In this document: positions 56,134 through 62,511 of the stretch, piece after piece
Position numbering within the stretch: position 1 is the first letter of the stretch
Layout: every line of letters begins with the position of its first letter
DNA from: Barnesiella sp. An22
Lineage (GTDB): Bacteria; Bacteroidota; Bacteroidia; Bacteroidales; Barnesiellaceae
Reading direction: 5' to 3'
DNA: 64,000 nt
Assembly: GCF_002159975.1 (NCBI RefSeq)
Contig: NZ_NFJR01000001.1
Location: forward strand, 248,001-312,000
Translations under genes and position numbers: made by a program
Notes under the pieces: model-generated
The model's database searches: none
Seen by the model: the letters and a program-made list of their open reading frames with translations, nothing else
What the model was told of the DNA's origin: nothing

Positions 56134-56163
56134 TTTGTTTTCTCGAAATAATAATTACCTTTG
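56134..56163 (+). promoter_or_regulatory. Promoter of the leu operon
   Basis: TTTG (56134-56137) as -33 and TACCTTTG (56156-56163) as -7, 18 bases apart. Transcription should start near 56169, 18 bases before the leader peptide. Confidence 0.8.
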
Positions 56164-56186
56164 CAATCGCATCAAGCCAATACGAC

Positions 56187-56258
56187 ATGACTATATCGCT
56201 GCTAAATAACCTGATTATTATTATTGATCTTCTATCGAACAGTCCCGACGAGAAGTGA
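56187..56258 (+). CDS. Leu/Ile-rich leader peptide of the leu operon
   Basis: A 23-codon frame, ATG to TGA, encodes MTISLLNNLIIIIDLL followed by SNSPDEK. It has five Leu codons (CTG CTA, CTG, CTT CTA) and five Ile codons, four of them in a row. CTA is unusual in this window, which favours CTG and CTC. It starts just downstream of the promoter and ends 40 bases before the terminator stem. Its stop codon lies inside an antiterminator arm. It probably has no function as a protein; ribosome position on it would control transcription of the operon. It was found by reading the leader, not by similarity. Confidence 0.8.
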   Translation: MTISLLNNLIIIIDLLSNSPDEK

Positions 56259-56335
56259 GAATCAGTGTTGCGCAGTAAACCGATAAAGAAACGTATATAG
56301 CCTTTCTCACGAATATGTTGGGAAAGGCTTTTTTT
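56211..56335 (+). promoter_or_regulatory. Transcription attenuator of the leu operon
   Basis: Four pairing segments: CTGATT (56211-56216) with AATCAG (56260-56265); GTGAGAA (56255-56261, containing the leader stop codon) with TTCTCAC (56304-56310); and the terminator stem. The second pairing overlaps the 5' arm of the terminator, so the two exclude each other. Confidence 0.7.
56298..56335 (+). terminator. Intrinsic terminator before leuA (attenuator)
   Basis: AGCCTTTC (56299-56306) pairs with GAAAGGCT (56322-56329), extended inward by about three pairs, then seven T. It lies between promoter and leuA, 26 bases before the start codon. Confidence 0.9.
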
Positions 56336-56360
56336 ATTAACCTCATATATGTGTAAAAGT

Positions 56361-57857
56361 ATGTCAGACAGATTGTACATTTTCGACACTACCCTACGAG
56401 ACGGCGAGCAAGTGCCCGGCTGTCAGCTCAACACCGTAGAAAAAATACAAGTGGCCAAAGCGCTCGAAGCCCTCGGGGTCGACGTCATCGAAGCCGGATT
56501 CCCGGTATCCAGTCCCGGCGACTTTGCATCTGTCGTAGCCATATCCAAGGCCGTGACCTGGCCCACCATCTGTGCCCTCACCCGGGCAGTCGAGAACGAC
56601 ATCAAGGTAGCGGCCGAGGCCCTGCAATATGCCAAGCACAAACGCATACACACCGGTATAGGCACCTCGGACTACCACATCAAATACAAGTTCAACTCGA
56701 CTCGCGAAGAGATTGTCGAGCGGGCTGTCGCTGCCGTCAAGTATGCCAAACGATATGTCGAGGATGTACAATTCTACGCCGAAGATGCAGGCCGTACCGA
56801 CAACGAATATCTGGCTCGCGTCGTCGAGGCCGTCATCAAGGCCGGGGCCACCGTCATCAACATACCCGACACCACCGGCTACTGCCTGCCCGACGAGTTC
56901 GGCCAGAAGATTCGCTACCTCATGGAGCACGTCGAGGGGATAGACCGCGTGGTCATCGCTACCCACTGCCACAACGACCTGGGTATGGCTACGGCCAACA
57001 CCATGGCCGGCATCCAGAACGGAGCCCGGCAGGCCGAGGTGACCATCAACGGCATCGGCGAACGGGCCGGCAACACCTCGCTCGAGGAGGTAGCCATGAT
57101 TTGCAAGTGCCACCACGACCTGCAAGTCGAAACCAACATCAACACCCAGAAGATTTACAGCACGAGCCGCCTCGTATCGAATCTGATGAATATGCCGGTA
57201 CAGCCCAACAAGGCCATCGTGGGACGCAACGCCTTTGCCCACTCGTCGGGCATCCATCAGGACGGCGTGCTGAAGAACCGCGAGAGCTACGAGATTATCG
57301 ACCCCAAAGAGGTGGGTATCGACGAAACCTCGATTGTATTGACCGCCCGCAGCGGACGAGCCGCCCTCAAGCACCGCCTTCACCTGCTGGGCATCGAGCT
57401 CGACAAAGAGGCGCTCGACAAAGCCTATGAGGCGTTCCTCAAACTGGCCGACCGCAAAAAAGACATCAACGACGACGATATACTGATGCTCGTGGGTAAA
57501 GAGCGCACGGCCAATGCCCGCATCCGCCTCGACTTCCTGCAAGTAACGGCAGGCGTAGGCATCAAGTCGGTAGCCAGCATCGGGCTCGACATTGCTGGCG
57601 AAAAGTTCGAGGCTGCCGCTTCGGGCAACGGACCCGTCGATGCCGCCATCAATGCCATCCGCTGCATCATCCACCGCAAGATGGTGGTGAGCGAATTTCT
57701 CATCCAGGCCATCACCCGAGGCAGCGACGACGTAGGCAAGGTGCACATGACCGTCGTCCACAACAACGCCTCCTACTACGGCTTCTCGGCCAATACCGAC
57801 ATCGTAGCCGCCTCGGCCGAAGCCTTTATCGACGCAATCAACAAATTTATCATATAA
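56361..57857 (+). CDS. leuA: 2-isopropylmalate synthase
   Basis: The 498-residue enzyme condenses 2-oxoisovalerate with acetyl-CoA, the first step of leucine synthesis. It has the HMGL-like TIM barrel start ([19 protein letters not shown]), metal ligand region [14 protein letters not shown], the [14 protein letters not shown] motif, the [13 protein letters not shown] linker and a C-terminal LeuA allosteric domain (residues about 365-498) for leucine feedback. Start 56361 matches the family; 56349 is an alternative in-frame ATG. It is the first structural gene after the attenuator. Confidence 0.97.
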
Positions 57858-57867
57858 ATCACACGAC

Positions 57868-59262
57868 ATGAACACGTTATTCGACAAGATATGGGACGCC
57901 CACGTAGTTACCTCGGTAGCCGGTGGTCCCGATCAGCTCTACATCGACCGGCACTACTGCCACGAAGTGACCAGTCCGCAGGCTTTCAACGAGTTGCGCG
58001 AACGTAAGTTGAAGGTATTCCGCCCGCAGAAGACCGTCTGCTCGCCCGACCACAACATACCCACGCTCCACCAGGACCAGCCCATTGCCGACCCCGTATC
58101 GCGCAACCAGGTCGACACGCTCGCCCGCAACGCCCGGGAGTTCGGCCTCACCTACTACGGTCTGGGCAACGAGAAGAACGGCATCATCCACGTAATCGGT
58201 CCCGAGTACGGGCTCACCCTGCCGGGCATGACTATCGTATGCGGCGACAGCCACACCTCTACCCACGGAGCCTTCGGCGCCATCGCCTTCGGTATCGGTA
58301 CCAGCGAGGTAGCCATGGTACTGGCCTCGCAGTGCATCTTGCAGCCCAAACCCAAAACCATGCGTATCAACATCGAGGGACAACTCGCCCCCGGTGTCAC
58401 CGCCAAAGATATAGCCCTCTATATCATCGCCCGGATGACTACGGGCGGGGCCACCGGCTACTTTGTCGAGTATGCCGGCGAGGCCATCCGCGCCCTCAGC
58501 ATGGAGGAGCGCATGACCGTATGCAACCTCAGTATCGAGATGGGAGCCCGCGGCGGACTGATTGCCCCCGACGAAACCACCTTTGCCTACGTCAAGGAGC
58601 GCGAGTTTGCCCCCAAAGGCGAAGCCTGGGACCGGGCCCTCGCCTACTGGAAGACGTTGCACAGCGATGCCGATGCCACCTTCGACCGCGAGGTGACCTT
58701 CCAGGCCGCCGACATCGCGCCTCGCATCACCTACGGGACCAACCCCGGCATGGGTATTGCCATCGACGAGGCCATCCCTACGGAAGAGAGTATCGACGAG
58801 AGCGGCAAGCTGTCGTTCCGCCAGGCGCTTCGCTACATGGGCTTCGAGGCCGGAGAGAAGCTGCTGGGCAAAAAAATCGACTACGTCTTCTTGGGCAGTT
58901 GCACCAACGGTCGCATCGAAGACTTCAGAGCCTTTGCCCGACTGGTGAAGGGGCATCGGAAAGCCGACCACGTGACCGCCTGGCTCGTGCCCGGTTCGCA
59001 AGCGGTAGCCCGCCAGATCAAGGCCGAAGGGCTCGACCGCACGCTGGCCGAAGCCGGGTTCGAGATACGTCAGCCGGGCTGCTCGGCCTGCCTGGCCATG
59101 AACGACGACAAAGTGCCGGCCGGCAAATATGCGGTATCGACCTCGAACCGCAACTTCGAAGGGCGTCAGGGCCCCGGAGCCCGCACCATCCTGGCCGGGC
59201 CGCTAGTAGCGGCAGCCGCAGCCATCACGGGTGAGATAACCGATCCACGAAAATTTTTATAA
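57868..59262 (+). CDS. leuC: 3-isopropylmalate dehydratase large subunit
   Basis: The 464-residue aconitase-family subunit starts [12 protein letters not shown]. It holds the 4Fe-4S cysteines in [12 protein letters not shown] and [11 protein letters not shown], with [21 protein letters not shown]-type substrate residues (seen here as [14 protein letters not shown]). With LeuD it isomerises 2- to 3-isopropylmalate. It begins 10 bases after leuA and 12 bases before leuD, within the operon. Confidence 0.98.
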
Positions 59263-59274
59263 CTTTACACTGCC

Positions 59275-59865
59275 ATGATTGAAAAAATAAATATCATAAC
59301 CTCGTCGTGCATTCCCCTTCCCCAGGAAAATGTCGACACCGACCAAATCATTCCGGCCCGATTCCTCAAAGCCGTATCGCGCGAGGGATTCGGCGAAAAC
59401 CTCTTCCGCGACTGGCGCTACGACAAGGAGGGGAAACCCGTGGCCGACTTCGTGCTCAACAACCCCGCCTACTCGGGCCAGATACTGGTAGCCGGCAAAA
59501 ACTTCGGCAGCGGCTCGAGCCGCGAGCATGCCGCCTGGGCCATCGCCGGGTATGGATTCCGGGTGGTGGTATCGAGCTTCTTTGCCGACATCTTCAAGAA
59601 CAACGCCCTCAACAACGGGGTGTTGCCGGTCGTAGTCTCCGAAGAGTTCCTGGCCGACCTCTTCCGCCATATCCAAGCCAACCCGAAAGCGACCGTGACG
59701 GTCAATCTCGAGGCGCAGACCATCACCGACAACACCAGCGGCGTGTCGGAACATTTCGAAATCAATCCCTATAAAAAGAGCTGCCTGCTCAACGGTTACG
59801 ACGACATCGACTATCTGCTCAGCAAAAAGCCGCAAATCGAAGCGTGGGAAGCCACACACCAGTAA
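59275..59865 (+). CDS. leuD: 3-isopropylmalate dehydratase small subunit
   Basis: The 196-residue swivelling domain subunit of isopropylmalate isomerase has [20 protein letters not shown] at the start. The substrate-binding loop [19 protein letters not shown] is complete. It pairs with LeuC to form the active enzyme. The next gene starts 10 bases after its stop. Confidence 0.98.
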
Positions 59866-59875
59866 ACGATTGCCT

Positions 59876-61423
59876 ATGTTTATAGAAATCATGGATACAA
59901 CGCTGCGGGACGGCGAACAGACCTCGGGGGTATCTTTTGCCCGGCAAGAAAAATTGAGCATTGCCCGGCTGCTCCTCGAGGAGTTGAAGATCCCCCGCAT
60001 CGAAATAGCTTCGGCCCGAGTCTCGTCGGGCGAATACGAAACTGCCACCCAACTGTGCGAATGGGCCCGGAAACGAGGACACATCGACAAAATAGAGATT
60101 CTGGGATTCCTCGACAACGGAGCCTCGATCGAGTGGATACGCTCGTGCGGGGCCCGGGTGATGAACCTGCTCTGCAAGGGCTCGGAAAAGCACTGCACCT
60201 TCCAGCTCAAAAAGACGGTACAGGAGCATATCGCCGACATCAAGGCAGCCATAAGAAAGGCTCGGGAAGCCGGACTGAAAATCAACCTCTACCTCGAGGA
60301 CTGGTCGAACGGCATACAGCACTCGCCGCAATATGTCTACCAACTGGTCGACGCACTGAAGAACGAAGCCGTAGAGCGGTTCATGCTGCCCGACACGCTG
60401 GGCATTCTCAACCCGCTCCAGACCCTGAAGTATTGCCGGGCCATGCGTCGCCGCTACCCCAACCTGCGGTTCGACTTCCACGCCCACAACGACTACGACC
60501 TGGCCACGGCCAACACCTTCGCAGCCGCCCTTACCGGCATACAGGGGGTGCACTGTACCGTCAACGGACTGGGCGAACGGGCCGGGAACGCGCCTCTTAC
60601 CAGTGTATTGGCCGTGCTGCACGACCAGGTGAAGGCCACGACGGGTGTCACCGAAAACATGCTCAACAAGGTGAGCCGCATCGTCGAATCCTACTCGGGT
60701 GTGCGGGTAGCCGCCAACAAGCCCATTATCGGCGAGTCGGTCTTCACCCAATGTGCCGGCGTCCATGCCGACGGCGACAACAAGAACAACCTCTACTACA
60801 ACGACCTGCTGCCCGAGCGCTTCGGACGCAAACGCGAGTATGCCCTGGGCAAGACCTCGGGGCGGGCCAACATCCGCAAGAATCTCGAATCGCTGGGCAT
60901 CGAGCTCGACGAAGAATCGATACAGCGGGTTACCCAACGGGTGGTCGAGCTGAGCGACAAAAAAGAGATGGTCACCCCCGAAGACCTCCCCTACATCATC
61001 TCCGACGTGCTGAAGCACCAGACCATCGCCCAGCACGTGAAGGTGGTCAACTACACCCTCAACCTCTCGCAGGGGCTCAAGCCGGTAGCCATTATCGCCA
61101 TCGACATCAACGGCCAGGTGTACGAGGGGGCATCGACCGGCGACGGTCAGTACGATGCCTTTGTAAAGGCCATCCGCAAAATCTACAAGGAGCAGCTGGG
61201 CCGCACCCTGCCCCTGCTCACCAACTACACGGTGAACATTCCGCCGGGCGGTCGCACCGACGCCCTCGTGCAGACCGTCATCTCGTGGGACTACAACGGC
61301 GGCGTGCTGAAAACCCAGGGCCTCGATGCCGACCAGATGGAGGCTGCCATACAGGCCACCATCAAAATGCTCAACCTCATCGAAGATAAAGAACACAAGG
61401 AACACATCATAGCAAACTCTTAA
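59876..61423 (+). CDS. Citramalate synthase-like (LeuA/CimA family)
   Basis: The 515-residue paralogue of LeuA has [19 protein letters not shown], the metal-site [28 protein letters not shown] and a C-terminal LeuA-type dimer domain (about 375-510). Its acceptor-loop residues differ from those of the leuA product here, and it lies between leuD and leuB. The likely reaction is pyruvate plus acetyl-CoA to citramalate, the entry to threonine-independent isoleucine synthesis; LeuCD and LeuB can then process citramalate. A second isopropylmalate synthase is the alternative. Start 59876 is the first ATG. Confidence 0.8.
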
Positions 61424-61434
61424 AACACAACCGC

Positions 61435-62511
61435 ATGAAGGAATTACATATCGCAGTATTACCGGGCGACGGCATAGGCCCGGAGGTAGTGGAACAGGCC
61501 TTGAACGTGACTCTGGCCGTCGGTAAGAAATTCGGTCACACCATCTTGCACGAAACGGCCCCGGTGGGAGCCTGCGCCATCGAAGAGACCGGCTCGCCCT
61601 ACCCCGACTCGACCCACGAGTTGTGCATGCGCTCCGACGCCGTACTGTTCGGTGCCATAGGCTCGCCCAAATACGACAACAACCCCAACGCCAAGGTTCG
61701 CCCCGAGCAGGGATTGCTCGCCATGCGCAAGAAGCTGGGGCTCTTTGCCAACATCCGCCCCATCACCACCTTCCCGGGGCTGATTCACAAGTCGCCCCTG
61801 CGGGCCGAACTGATTGACGGGGCCGACTTCATGTGCATCCGCGAACTCACCGGCGGCCTCTACTTCGGCCGTCCGCAAGGCCGCAGCGAAGACGGCAGCG
61901 TGGCCTACGACACCTGCATGTACAGCCGCGAAGAGATTACCCGCATCGTACAGCTCGCCTACGACTATGCCATGCGCCGACGCAAGAAGGTGACGATGGT
62001 CGACAAGGCCAACATCCTGGCCACCTCGCGGCTCTGGCGCGAAGTGACACAAGAGATTGCCGCCGAATATCCCGAAGTAGAGACCGAGTTTCTCTTCGTC
62101 GACAACGCCGCCATGCGCATGATTCAATGGCCCAAGAGCTTCGACGTCATCGTGACCGAAAACATGTTCGGCGACATCCTCACCGACGAGGGGTCGGTCA
62201 TCACCGGCTCGCTGGGCATGCTGCCCTCGGCCTCGATCGGGCTGCACACCTCGGTATTCGAGCCCATACACGGCTCCTACCCGCAAGCCGCCGGCAAAGA
62301 CATAGCCAACCCGCTGGCCACGATTCTGTCGACCGCCATGATGTTCGAATACGCCTTCGATCTGAAAGCCGAGGCCGACCTCATCAGGCAAGCCGTAGCC
62401 GAGTCGATGAAAGCCGGCATCGTGACCGAGGATATTGCCGACCCGGGAGCCCCCACCTGCCACACCCACGAGGTAGGCGAGTGGATTGTAAAATGGATTG
62501 AGCAACATTAA
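61435..62511 (+). CDS. leuB: 3-isopropylmalate dehydrogenase
   Basis: The 358-residue NAD-dependent beta-decarboxylating dehydrogenase starts [19 protein letters not shown]. It has the substrate residues [21 protein letters not shown] and [10 protein letters not shown], the metal Asp cluster [25 protein letters not shown], and the NAD loop [15 protein letters not shown]. It oxidises 3-isopropylmalate, completing the leucine-specific steps. It is the last gene of the operon, followed by a bidirectional terminator. Confidence 0.98.

Follow-up and report, generated by a model that had tools for sequence, protein, structure and literature searches.

How is the leucine operon of Barnesiella sp. 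An22 controlled? To our knowledge, few studies have characterised how gut Bacteroidales control their amino-acid genes. The operon studied here lies within a stretch of 64,000 nucleotides that was analysed as a whole (the window), with the gene order leuA-leuC-leuD-cimA-like-leuB 3' of a leader and all genes on the plus strand; its nearest named leuA (94% identity) is labelled uncultured Barnesiella. The original prediction proposed ribosome-mediated attenuation at this leader, and comparative conservation and covariation support that proposal: a ribosome-mediated transcription attenuator very probably controls leuA-leuC-leuD-cimA-leuB. The features of the locus, all on the plus strand, are as follows.

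56134-56137 and 56156-56163, plus strand: promoter of Bacteroidales type, read directly, with TTTG, an 18-nt spacer and TACCTTTG; the box is kept in relatives
56187-56258, plus strand: predicted leader peptide gene of 23 codons and TGA (56256-56258), MTISLLNNLIIIIDLLSNSPDEK; kept in the genus
56214-56234, plus strand: control codons, four ATT (Ile) at 56214-56225, GAT, and CTT CTA (Leu-Leu) at 56229-56234
56198-56276, plus strand: predicted protector hairpin (1:2), GCTGC (56198-56202) with GCAGT (56272-56276)
within the protector, plus strand: further pairs AATA (56205-56208) with TGTT (56266-56269), CTTCT (56229-56233) with AGAAG (56251-56255), and TCG with CGA
56253-56261, plus strand: antiterminator 5' arm (segment 2), AAGTGAGAA, overlapping the TGA of the leader frame
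56304-56310, plus strand: antiterminator 3' arm (segment 3), TTCTCAC, within the terminator 5' arm
56299-56335, plus strand: predicted intrinsic terminator, stem AGCCTTTCTCA/TGGGAAAGGCT with loop CGAATATGT; stem 56299-56329, seven T 56329-56335
56361-57857, plus strand: leuA, 2-isopropylmalate synthase, starting at the conserved methionine of MSDR in a frame open from 56349
57868-59262, plus strand: leuC
59275-59865, plus strand: leuD
59870-61423, plus strand: second synthase, cimA-like, with a Leptospira-type (R)-citramalate synthase CimA as top match
61435-62511, plus strand: leuB

The match of the second synthase to CimA reaches 617.9 bits, which is under the curated cut-off of 950, and the next family follows at 334 bits. 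A citramalate synthase would supply isoleucine synthesis via LeuCDB. Since the fourth gene resembles such an enzyme, sensing of Ile beside Leu would fit the operon, and a gene of this kind within the leu operon would account for the Ile codons that stand beside the Leu codons in the leader.

The promoter (TTTG-N18-TACCTTTG), the 23-codon frame with Leu-Leu, Leu, four Ile and Leu-Leu, and the terminator 40 bases past the leader stop all lie where the original prediction had placed them, the frame being confirmed by direct reading and the terminator at 56299-56335. For comparison across the order, 106 non-redundant Bacteroidales leuA loci were available after the removal of five duplicates (L001, L032, L055, L073, and L107). 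Among these, 59 carry a CCTTTCT-like terminator arm no more than 170 nt from leuA, the loci having been selected by CC[TC][TC]TCT within that distance, and their leaders form the 59 rows of the alignment A2 used in the covariation tests. In the alignment across the order, the frame, its Leu/Ile codons, the antiterminator, and the terminator are conserved, with covariation. A TAnnTTTG box was found no more than 70 nt from the leader ATG in 54 of the 59 relatives vs. 3.8% in shuffles.

In the genus, leuA was recovered in seven of the eight other genomes, and all seven loci have a Leu/Ile-rich frame of 19-23 codons followed by a terminator. Both Leu codons and two Ile codons are invariant across the eight genus leaders; the number of Ile codons varies, and the peptide residues beyond the Leu/Ile run are variable among relatives. 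In six of the seven other genus loci, the antiterminator arm and the TGA of the frame overlap, and in the remaining one (L009) the frame stops at TAG immediately 5' of GTGAG. Farther away, the leader of Bacteroides fragilis reads MNQSFIHILLCGIIILLAKVGGSECRA, with GGAAGTGAG inside the frame, and that of a Parabacteroides distasonis MAG (L082) ends in IILLWEQDRK, with AAG TGA G spanning the stop.

The codon usage of the leaders is distinctive. CTA makes up 106 of 295 Leu codons in the leaders vs. 38 of 1886 in the leuA genes of these loci; the leaders of the genus have 19 of 36, whereas seven genes of the window have 3 of 227. From its use in leuA and in the window genes, CTA is a rare codon here. 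The leader frames of the relatives were picked for maximal Leu/Ile, so their composition is biased in that direction.

The position of the codon run relative to the arm is also constrained. In the arm tests, which covered 49 leaders because 10 of the 59 lack an exact GTGAG and were excluded, 10-16 nt separate the last Leu/Ile run from the antiterminator arm in 49 of 49; codon-shuffled leaders have a gap of 9-19 nt in 29%, and the standard deviation is 1.7 nt in the real leaders vs. 16.2 nt in the shuffled ones. The first base of GTGAG lies 1 nt upstream of the stop codon in 24 of the 49 and 14 nt upstream of it in 17. We read these distances against the usual sizes of the ribosome footprint: with a gap of 10-16 nt, a stalled ribosome would not quite reach the arm, and a ribosome at the stop codon would cover it.

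The 7-bp antiterminator that had been predicted to overlap the terminator 5' arm, GTGAGAA (56255-56261) with TTCTCAC (56304-56310), is present, and its pairing covaries among relatives. The pairing forms in 84.1% of cells vs. 80.2% after shuffling, and 19 cells changed on both sides vs. 6.5 expected (0/500 shuffles), a count that a +1 slide of the arm equals. The covariation score was 0.151, and no slid version exceeded 0.080; with the arm slid by -3 or -2, 76-77% of cells can still pair. Double changes occur in six pairs, a number reached by 20/500 shuffles, and further pair types were not above shuffles (231/500). The outer pairs (columns 51-54) form in 72% of cells. A nine-pair form, GGAAGTGAG/CTCACTTCC, is complete in 24 of the 59 rows and has at least eight pairs in 37; the genus has a shorter form, and in the Barnesiella group the pairing extends to the opposite side of GTGAG. 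The clearest compensated antiterminators are GGGAGTGAG/CTCACTCC in three loci (L015, L040, and L042). RNAalifold returned no consensus pairs on the 59-row A2. By base pairing, the predicted antiterminator is mutually exclusive with the terminator.

The predicted terminator, with a stem that begins 40 nt past the leader stop and is conserved in 7/7 genus loci, has double changes in 8 of 13 pairs (1/500 shuffles as high), and 58 of the 59 leuA loci have a stem of at least seven pairs and a T run. A simple terminator and promoter scan of the region missed this terminator, the probable reason being that its loop is 9 and the loop limit of the scan is 8. The lower stem CCTTTC/GAAAGG (56300-56329 and relatives) is strongly conserved in sequence, although double pairing is required of the upper part alone. 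Many of the ilvD leaders found by the covariance model described below also have the motif, part of which served to select the 59 leuA loci.

Terminators with an upstream complementary arm were also counted, the complementarity being one reached by at most 2/50 shuffles. Such a combination was found in 41 of the 59 arm-bearing leuA loci and in 5 of the 47 others. It was likewise found in 25 of 35 ilvD loci, a set chosen by the covariance model and thus by the features then tested, and in 11 of 30 hisG loci. The 380 control regions, which served both this test and that of peptide composition, gave one; many of their ORFs are spurious, so they underestimate the terminators that stand before real genes.

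The original prediction also held that a third stem, CTGATT (56211-56216) with AATCAG (56260-56265), sequesters the antiterminator arm. The stem is present, 87% of genus cells pair, and there is one compensatory pair; its covariation was reached by 83/500 shuffles. These six pairs may add to the protector, at best as a small part of it. The sequestration itself is upheld by the fold and codon-shuffle tests, in the form of a protector larger than the six pairs proposed. The mean unpaired probability of the arm is 0.188 vs. 0.366 after codon shuffling of the ORF, and it lies under the shuffled mean in 49/49 leaders; at single loci the difference is modest, and the window's own leader (5/30 shuffles as low) is not significant alone. 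Similarly, in 54 of 59 leaders the ORF and spacer fold more stably than codon-shuffled versions do on average, with z below -1.6 in 34, and the window's own leader, at z -1.3 (9/60 shuffles), is again not significant alone.

Consensus protectors differ among groups, and their structures were predicted from the same alignments used to test them. In 16 Bacteroides-type leaders, double changes occur in 8 of 22 pairs (2/500 shuffles), and 91% of cells are paired; slid versions pair no more than 59%. For the genus, and likewise for nine leaders of the Parabacteroides type, the share of paired cells is 93-94%, with covariation not clearly above shuffles. The terminal Ile/Leu codons themselves pair with the arm in all three of these groups: TTATTC.ACT/AGTGAGTG, TTCTA/TAGGA, and CTTCT/AGAAG. 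On average 3.53 of 7.29 units of the pairing between arm and ORF fall within the last Leu/Ile run, which occupies 11.8 of 67 nt. These fold models support a protector that would hide the arm and be built partly by the control codons.

Comparison among relatives thus establishes, on sequence grounds, the leader frame, its codon bias, its spacing, and the covariation of the antiterminator, the terminator, and the Bacteroides-type protector. From these we infer tRNA sensing, in vivo termination, and the positions of the ribosome, along the following course. RNA polymerase would start at about 56170, and a ribosome would enter the 23-codon leader. With ample charged Leu and Ile tRNAs, it would reach the stop codon, which lies inside the arm AAGTGAGAA, and would cover the arm, so that the terminator (56299-56335) could form and transcription would end. 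With uncharged Leu (or Ile) tRNA, it would stall on the Ile/Leu run; because this run helps to form the 5' strand of the protector, stalling would open the protector. The front edge of the stalled ribosome would lie just short of the arm, which would then pair with TTCTCAC, prevent the terminator, and allow the operon to be read. If the leader were untranslated, the protector would fold, and termination would be expected. Predicted folds follow the same pattern: for RNA free from 56245 (a stall at Leu16) the antiterminator is best (-17.5 kcal/mol), for RNA free from 56269 (a ribosome at the stop) the terminator is best (-15.3 kcal/mol), and the whole untranslated leader forms protector and terminator together.

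Could these features arise in another way? A terminator that is constitutive or unregulated and merely stands at the start of the operon is barely credible. The simple scan does find terminator-like sites at chance level in the region (2 vs. 2.8 expected), so that a terminator site alone is weak evidence; what makes this site significant is the conservation of the frame, the terminator, and the promoter box together with the arm, and mutually exclusive covarying arms beside a conserved frame argue against a lack of regulation. An RNA that binds a ligand or a tRNA (a riboswitch or T-box), or a leader bound by a protein, with an incidental short frame, is extremely unlikely. The terminator and antiterminator arms taken alone would be compatible with such an RNA, as would the strong sequence conservation of the terminator arm in the aligned loci, which were selected by part of that motif. 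However, none of the 4227 Rfam families, the leucine-leader family included, matched the leu leader of the window or the loci of 12 relatives (11 with a leader), and no T-box or riboswitch family matched at the leu, ilv, and his leaders scanned. The only match elsewhere in the scan was a weak one to STnc240 (28 vs. 55 bits). An RNA of this kind would also leave unaccounted for the Leu/Ile content, the CTA bias, the arm spacing, and the switch to Val and His at ilvD and hisG that is described below.

It is also quite unlikely that the leader peptide is real and acts mainly in some other way, namely, by coupling or reinitiation into leuA, by nascent-chain arrest that senses free leucine, or in trans. 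Two of these actions have published parallels: a trans-acting leader peptide, peTrpL, exists (PMC7298713), and reinitiation at leader genes is a proposal made for many bacteria, Bacteroidetes among them (PMC4833913). Against this, the leader stop lies 102 nt upstream of the leuA ATG with the terminator in between, the residues beyond the Leu/Ile run are variable, and the amino acids differ by operon.

The leader is widespread in Bacteroidales. A covariance model (R1) built from A2 has correctly placed matches in 6 of the 47 loci that lack the terminator arm (L020, L028, L030, L068, L090, and L111), which leaves 41 of the 106 leuA loci with neither arm nor match; in two of these (L077 and L081) the contig ends no more than 61 nt from leuA. 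Over the order, 73 of 198 genomes have a match at E of 0.01 or less, in a search with stricter filters by which weak matches were lost. In the own genome, R1 has three matches at E of 1 or less: one at leuA, one at C45:197086 before ilvD (E 0.04), and a third (E 0.8) that we take as chance. Among the 29 loci L115-L143, 25 precede leuA and four precede ilvD. A further 40 matches were picked by hand from the list, mostly better-scoring ones, and precede ilvD (29), a weak relative of IlvD (one), leuA (three), a glutamate synthase gene (one), and trpB (one). The other five were set aside, as they precede an unrelated ORF (L169 and L179) or have no downstream ORF (L177, L180, and L181).

The same design was found before other amino-acid operons. 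The ilvD leader of the own genome (L188, G000:C45:197033-197195) encodes MMIMILHVISLSIIISELIVVSR, with Ile, Val, and Leu codons, and has a 10-bp antiterminator formed by GGTGGAAAGG, just 3' of the stop, and CCTTTCCACC. Many ilvD leaders encode a Val-rich peptide, e.g., MKALLSNIILVVVVVVLIIRSGVENGIA, and the identity of IlvD was given by NCBIfam for L126, L137, and L188. The hisG leader of the own genome (L187, G000:C34:187117-187250) encodes MLFLSLHHHHHLHIPRRGVR with six His codons; the antiterminator arm, TACGGTGAG, spans the TGA, and CTTACCGTA and then a terminator follow before hisG. Of hisG loci found by the HisG protein alone, 26/30 have a short frame that encodes three or more His, the frames having been picked for His. 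The trpB leader of a relative (L172) encodes MNFLLTNTFWWWHSQLKKS, with three Trp codons (WWW) and an arm that overlaps the TGA; R1 found it (E 0.002), and it scores 49.7 bits with RF01692, for which the gathering score is 49.

When leader peptides were chosen without regard to composition, by taking the first ATG that follows a TAnnTTTG box, those before leuA contained 20% Leu, 18% Ile, and 2% Val (65 peptides from 106 loci), those before ilvD 18% Val (24 peptides from 35 loci), and those before hisG 26% His (20 peptides from 30 loci; 18 of the 20 have three or more His). Control peptides contained 12/9/4/3% Leu/Ile/Val/His (18 peptides from 380 regions), and four of the 18 reached at least 40% Leu, Ile, and Val combined. 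Judged from these leaders, the identity of the control codons tracks the product of the operon, and the strongest argument that ribosome stalling would be the signal lies in this correspondence between codons and operon.

An attenuator-like leader (L168, G015:C40:24500-26240, minus strand) precedes a gene that matches the large subunit of glutamate synthase with 473.5 bits against a cut-off of 1047, the ORF being incomplete; the short frame of this leader, MTIGIIWSG, reaches the arm at the TGA and is free of Glu and Gln codons. Before the aspartokinase/homoserine dehydrogenase gene of the own genome, neither a threonine leader nor a clear terminator was found; the region upstream of this gene (L186, G000:C53:55500-59200) carries CACCCCTT and AAGGGGTG repeats. 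In a search with PF04715, trpE was not found in the own genome.

The chances seem evenly balanced that the leu/ile, ilv, his, and trp leaders are one Bacteroidales chassis refitted by a swap of control codons, whether via descent or re-use. Its parts would be a TAnnTTTG promoter, a very short 5' UTR, a codon run placed in the protector strand 10-16 nt before the arm, an antiterminator arm situated at the leader stop codon or close to it, and a terminator. If so, ribosome-mediated attenuation would be a main amino-acid sensor of Bacteroidales, and Bacteroidales ribosomes would trail RNA polymerase closely. Since an attenuator of this kind works only with a ribosome that keeps pace with RNA polymerase, the leader bears on transcription-translation coupling in the phylum.

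Candidates in Bacteroidetes/Chlorobi were reportedly listed by Vitreschak et al. in 2004. A later survey stated that, except for ermC, no leader peptides were known beyond Proteobacteria and Actinobacteria, and added Firmicutes (Naville and Gautheret 2010, PMC2965389). For Flavobacterium psychrophilum, strong indications of attenuation by leader peptides ahead of amino-acid operons have been reported (PMC9723704), and in B. thetaiotaomicron there are sORFs in 5' UTRs that are "reminiscent of leader peptides" (PMC7366714). These two papers treat Bacteroidota candidates in general terms, and their accessible parts describe no Bacteroidales leu, ilv, or his leader. In searches of the open-access literature, we found no leu, ilv, or his attenuator described in Bacteroidales. 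The novelty claimed by the original prediction is narrowed by the Flavobacterium candidates (PMC9723704), by those reportedly listed in 2004, and by the Bacteroid-trp family in Rfam. That family (RF01692, "Bacteroidete tryptophan peptide leader RNA"), listed by Weinberg 2010 (PMC2864571), is the nearest precedent, from the same phylum and of the same kind of element; it differs in its Trp codons and trp genes, and it had no match at the leu leaders scanned and none in the own genome. The leu, ilv, and his leaders, which had no Rfam match in our scans, could enter Rfam with their alignments.

The enterobacterial leu attenuator (leuL) has tandem Leu codons that include the rare CUA, alternative hairpins, and leu genes downstream. 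The leader described here is like it in having a Leu-codon leader peptide with CTA, alternative hairpins, and leu genes. A leucine-rich attenuator peptide of Staphylococcus aureus, a member of the Firmicutes, is described as likewise acting on branched-chain synthesis (PMC5794164). The mechanism is a classic one, and the leu leader would be a further case of it in a little-studied group. It differs from leuL in that Ile codons occur almost as often as Leu codons, the arm overlaps the stop, and the promoter is of the Bacteroidales type.
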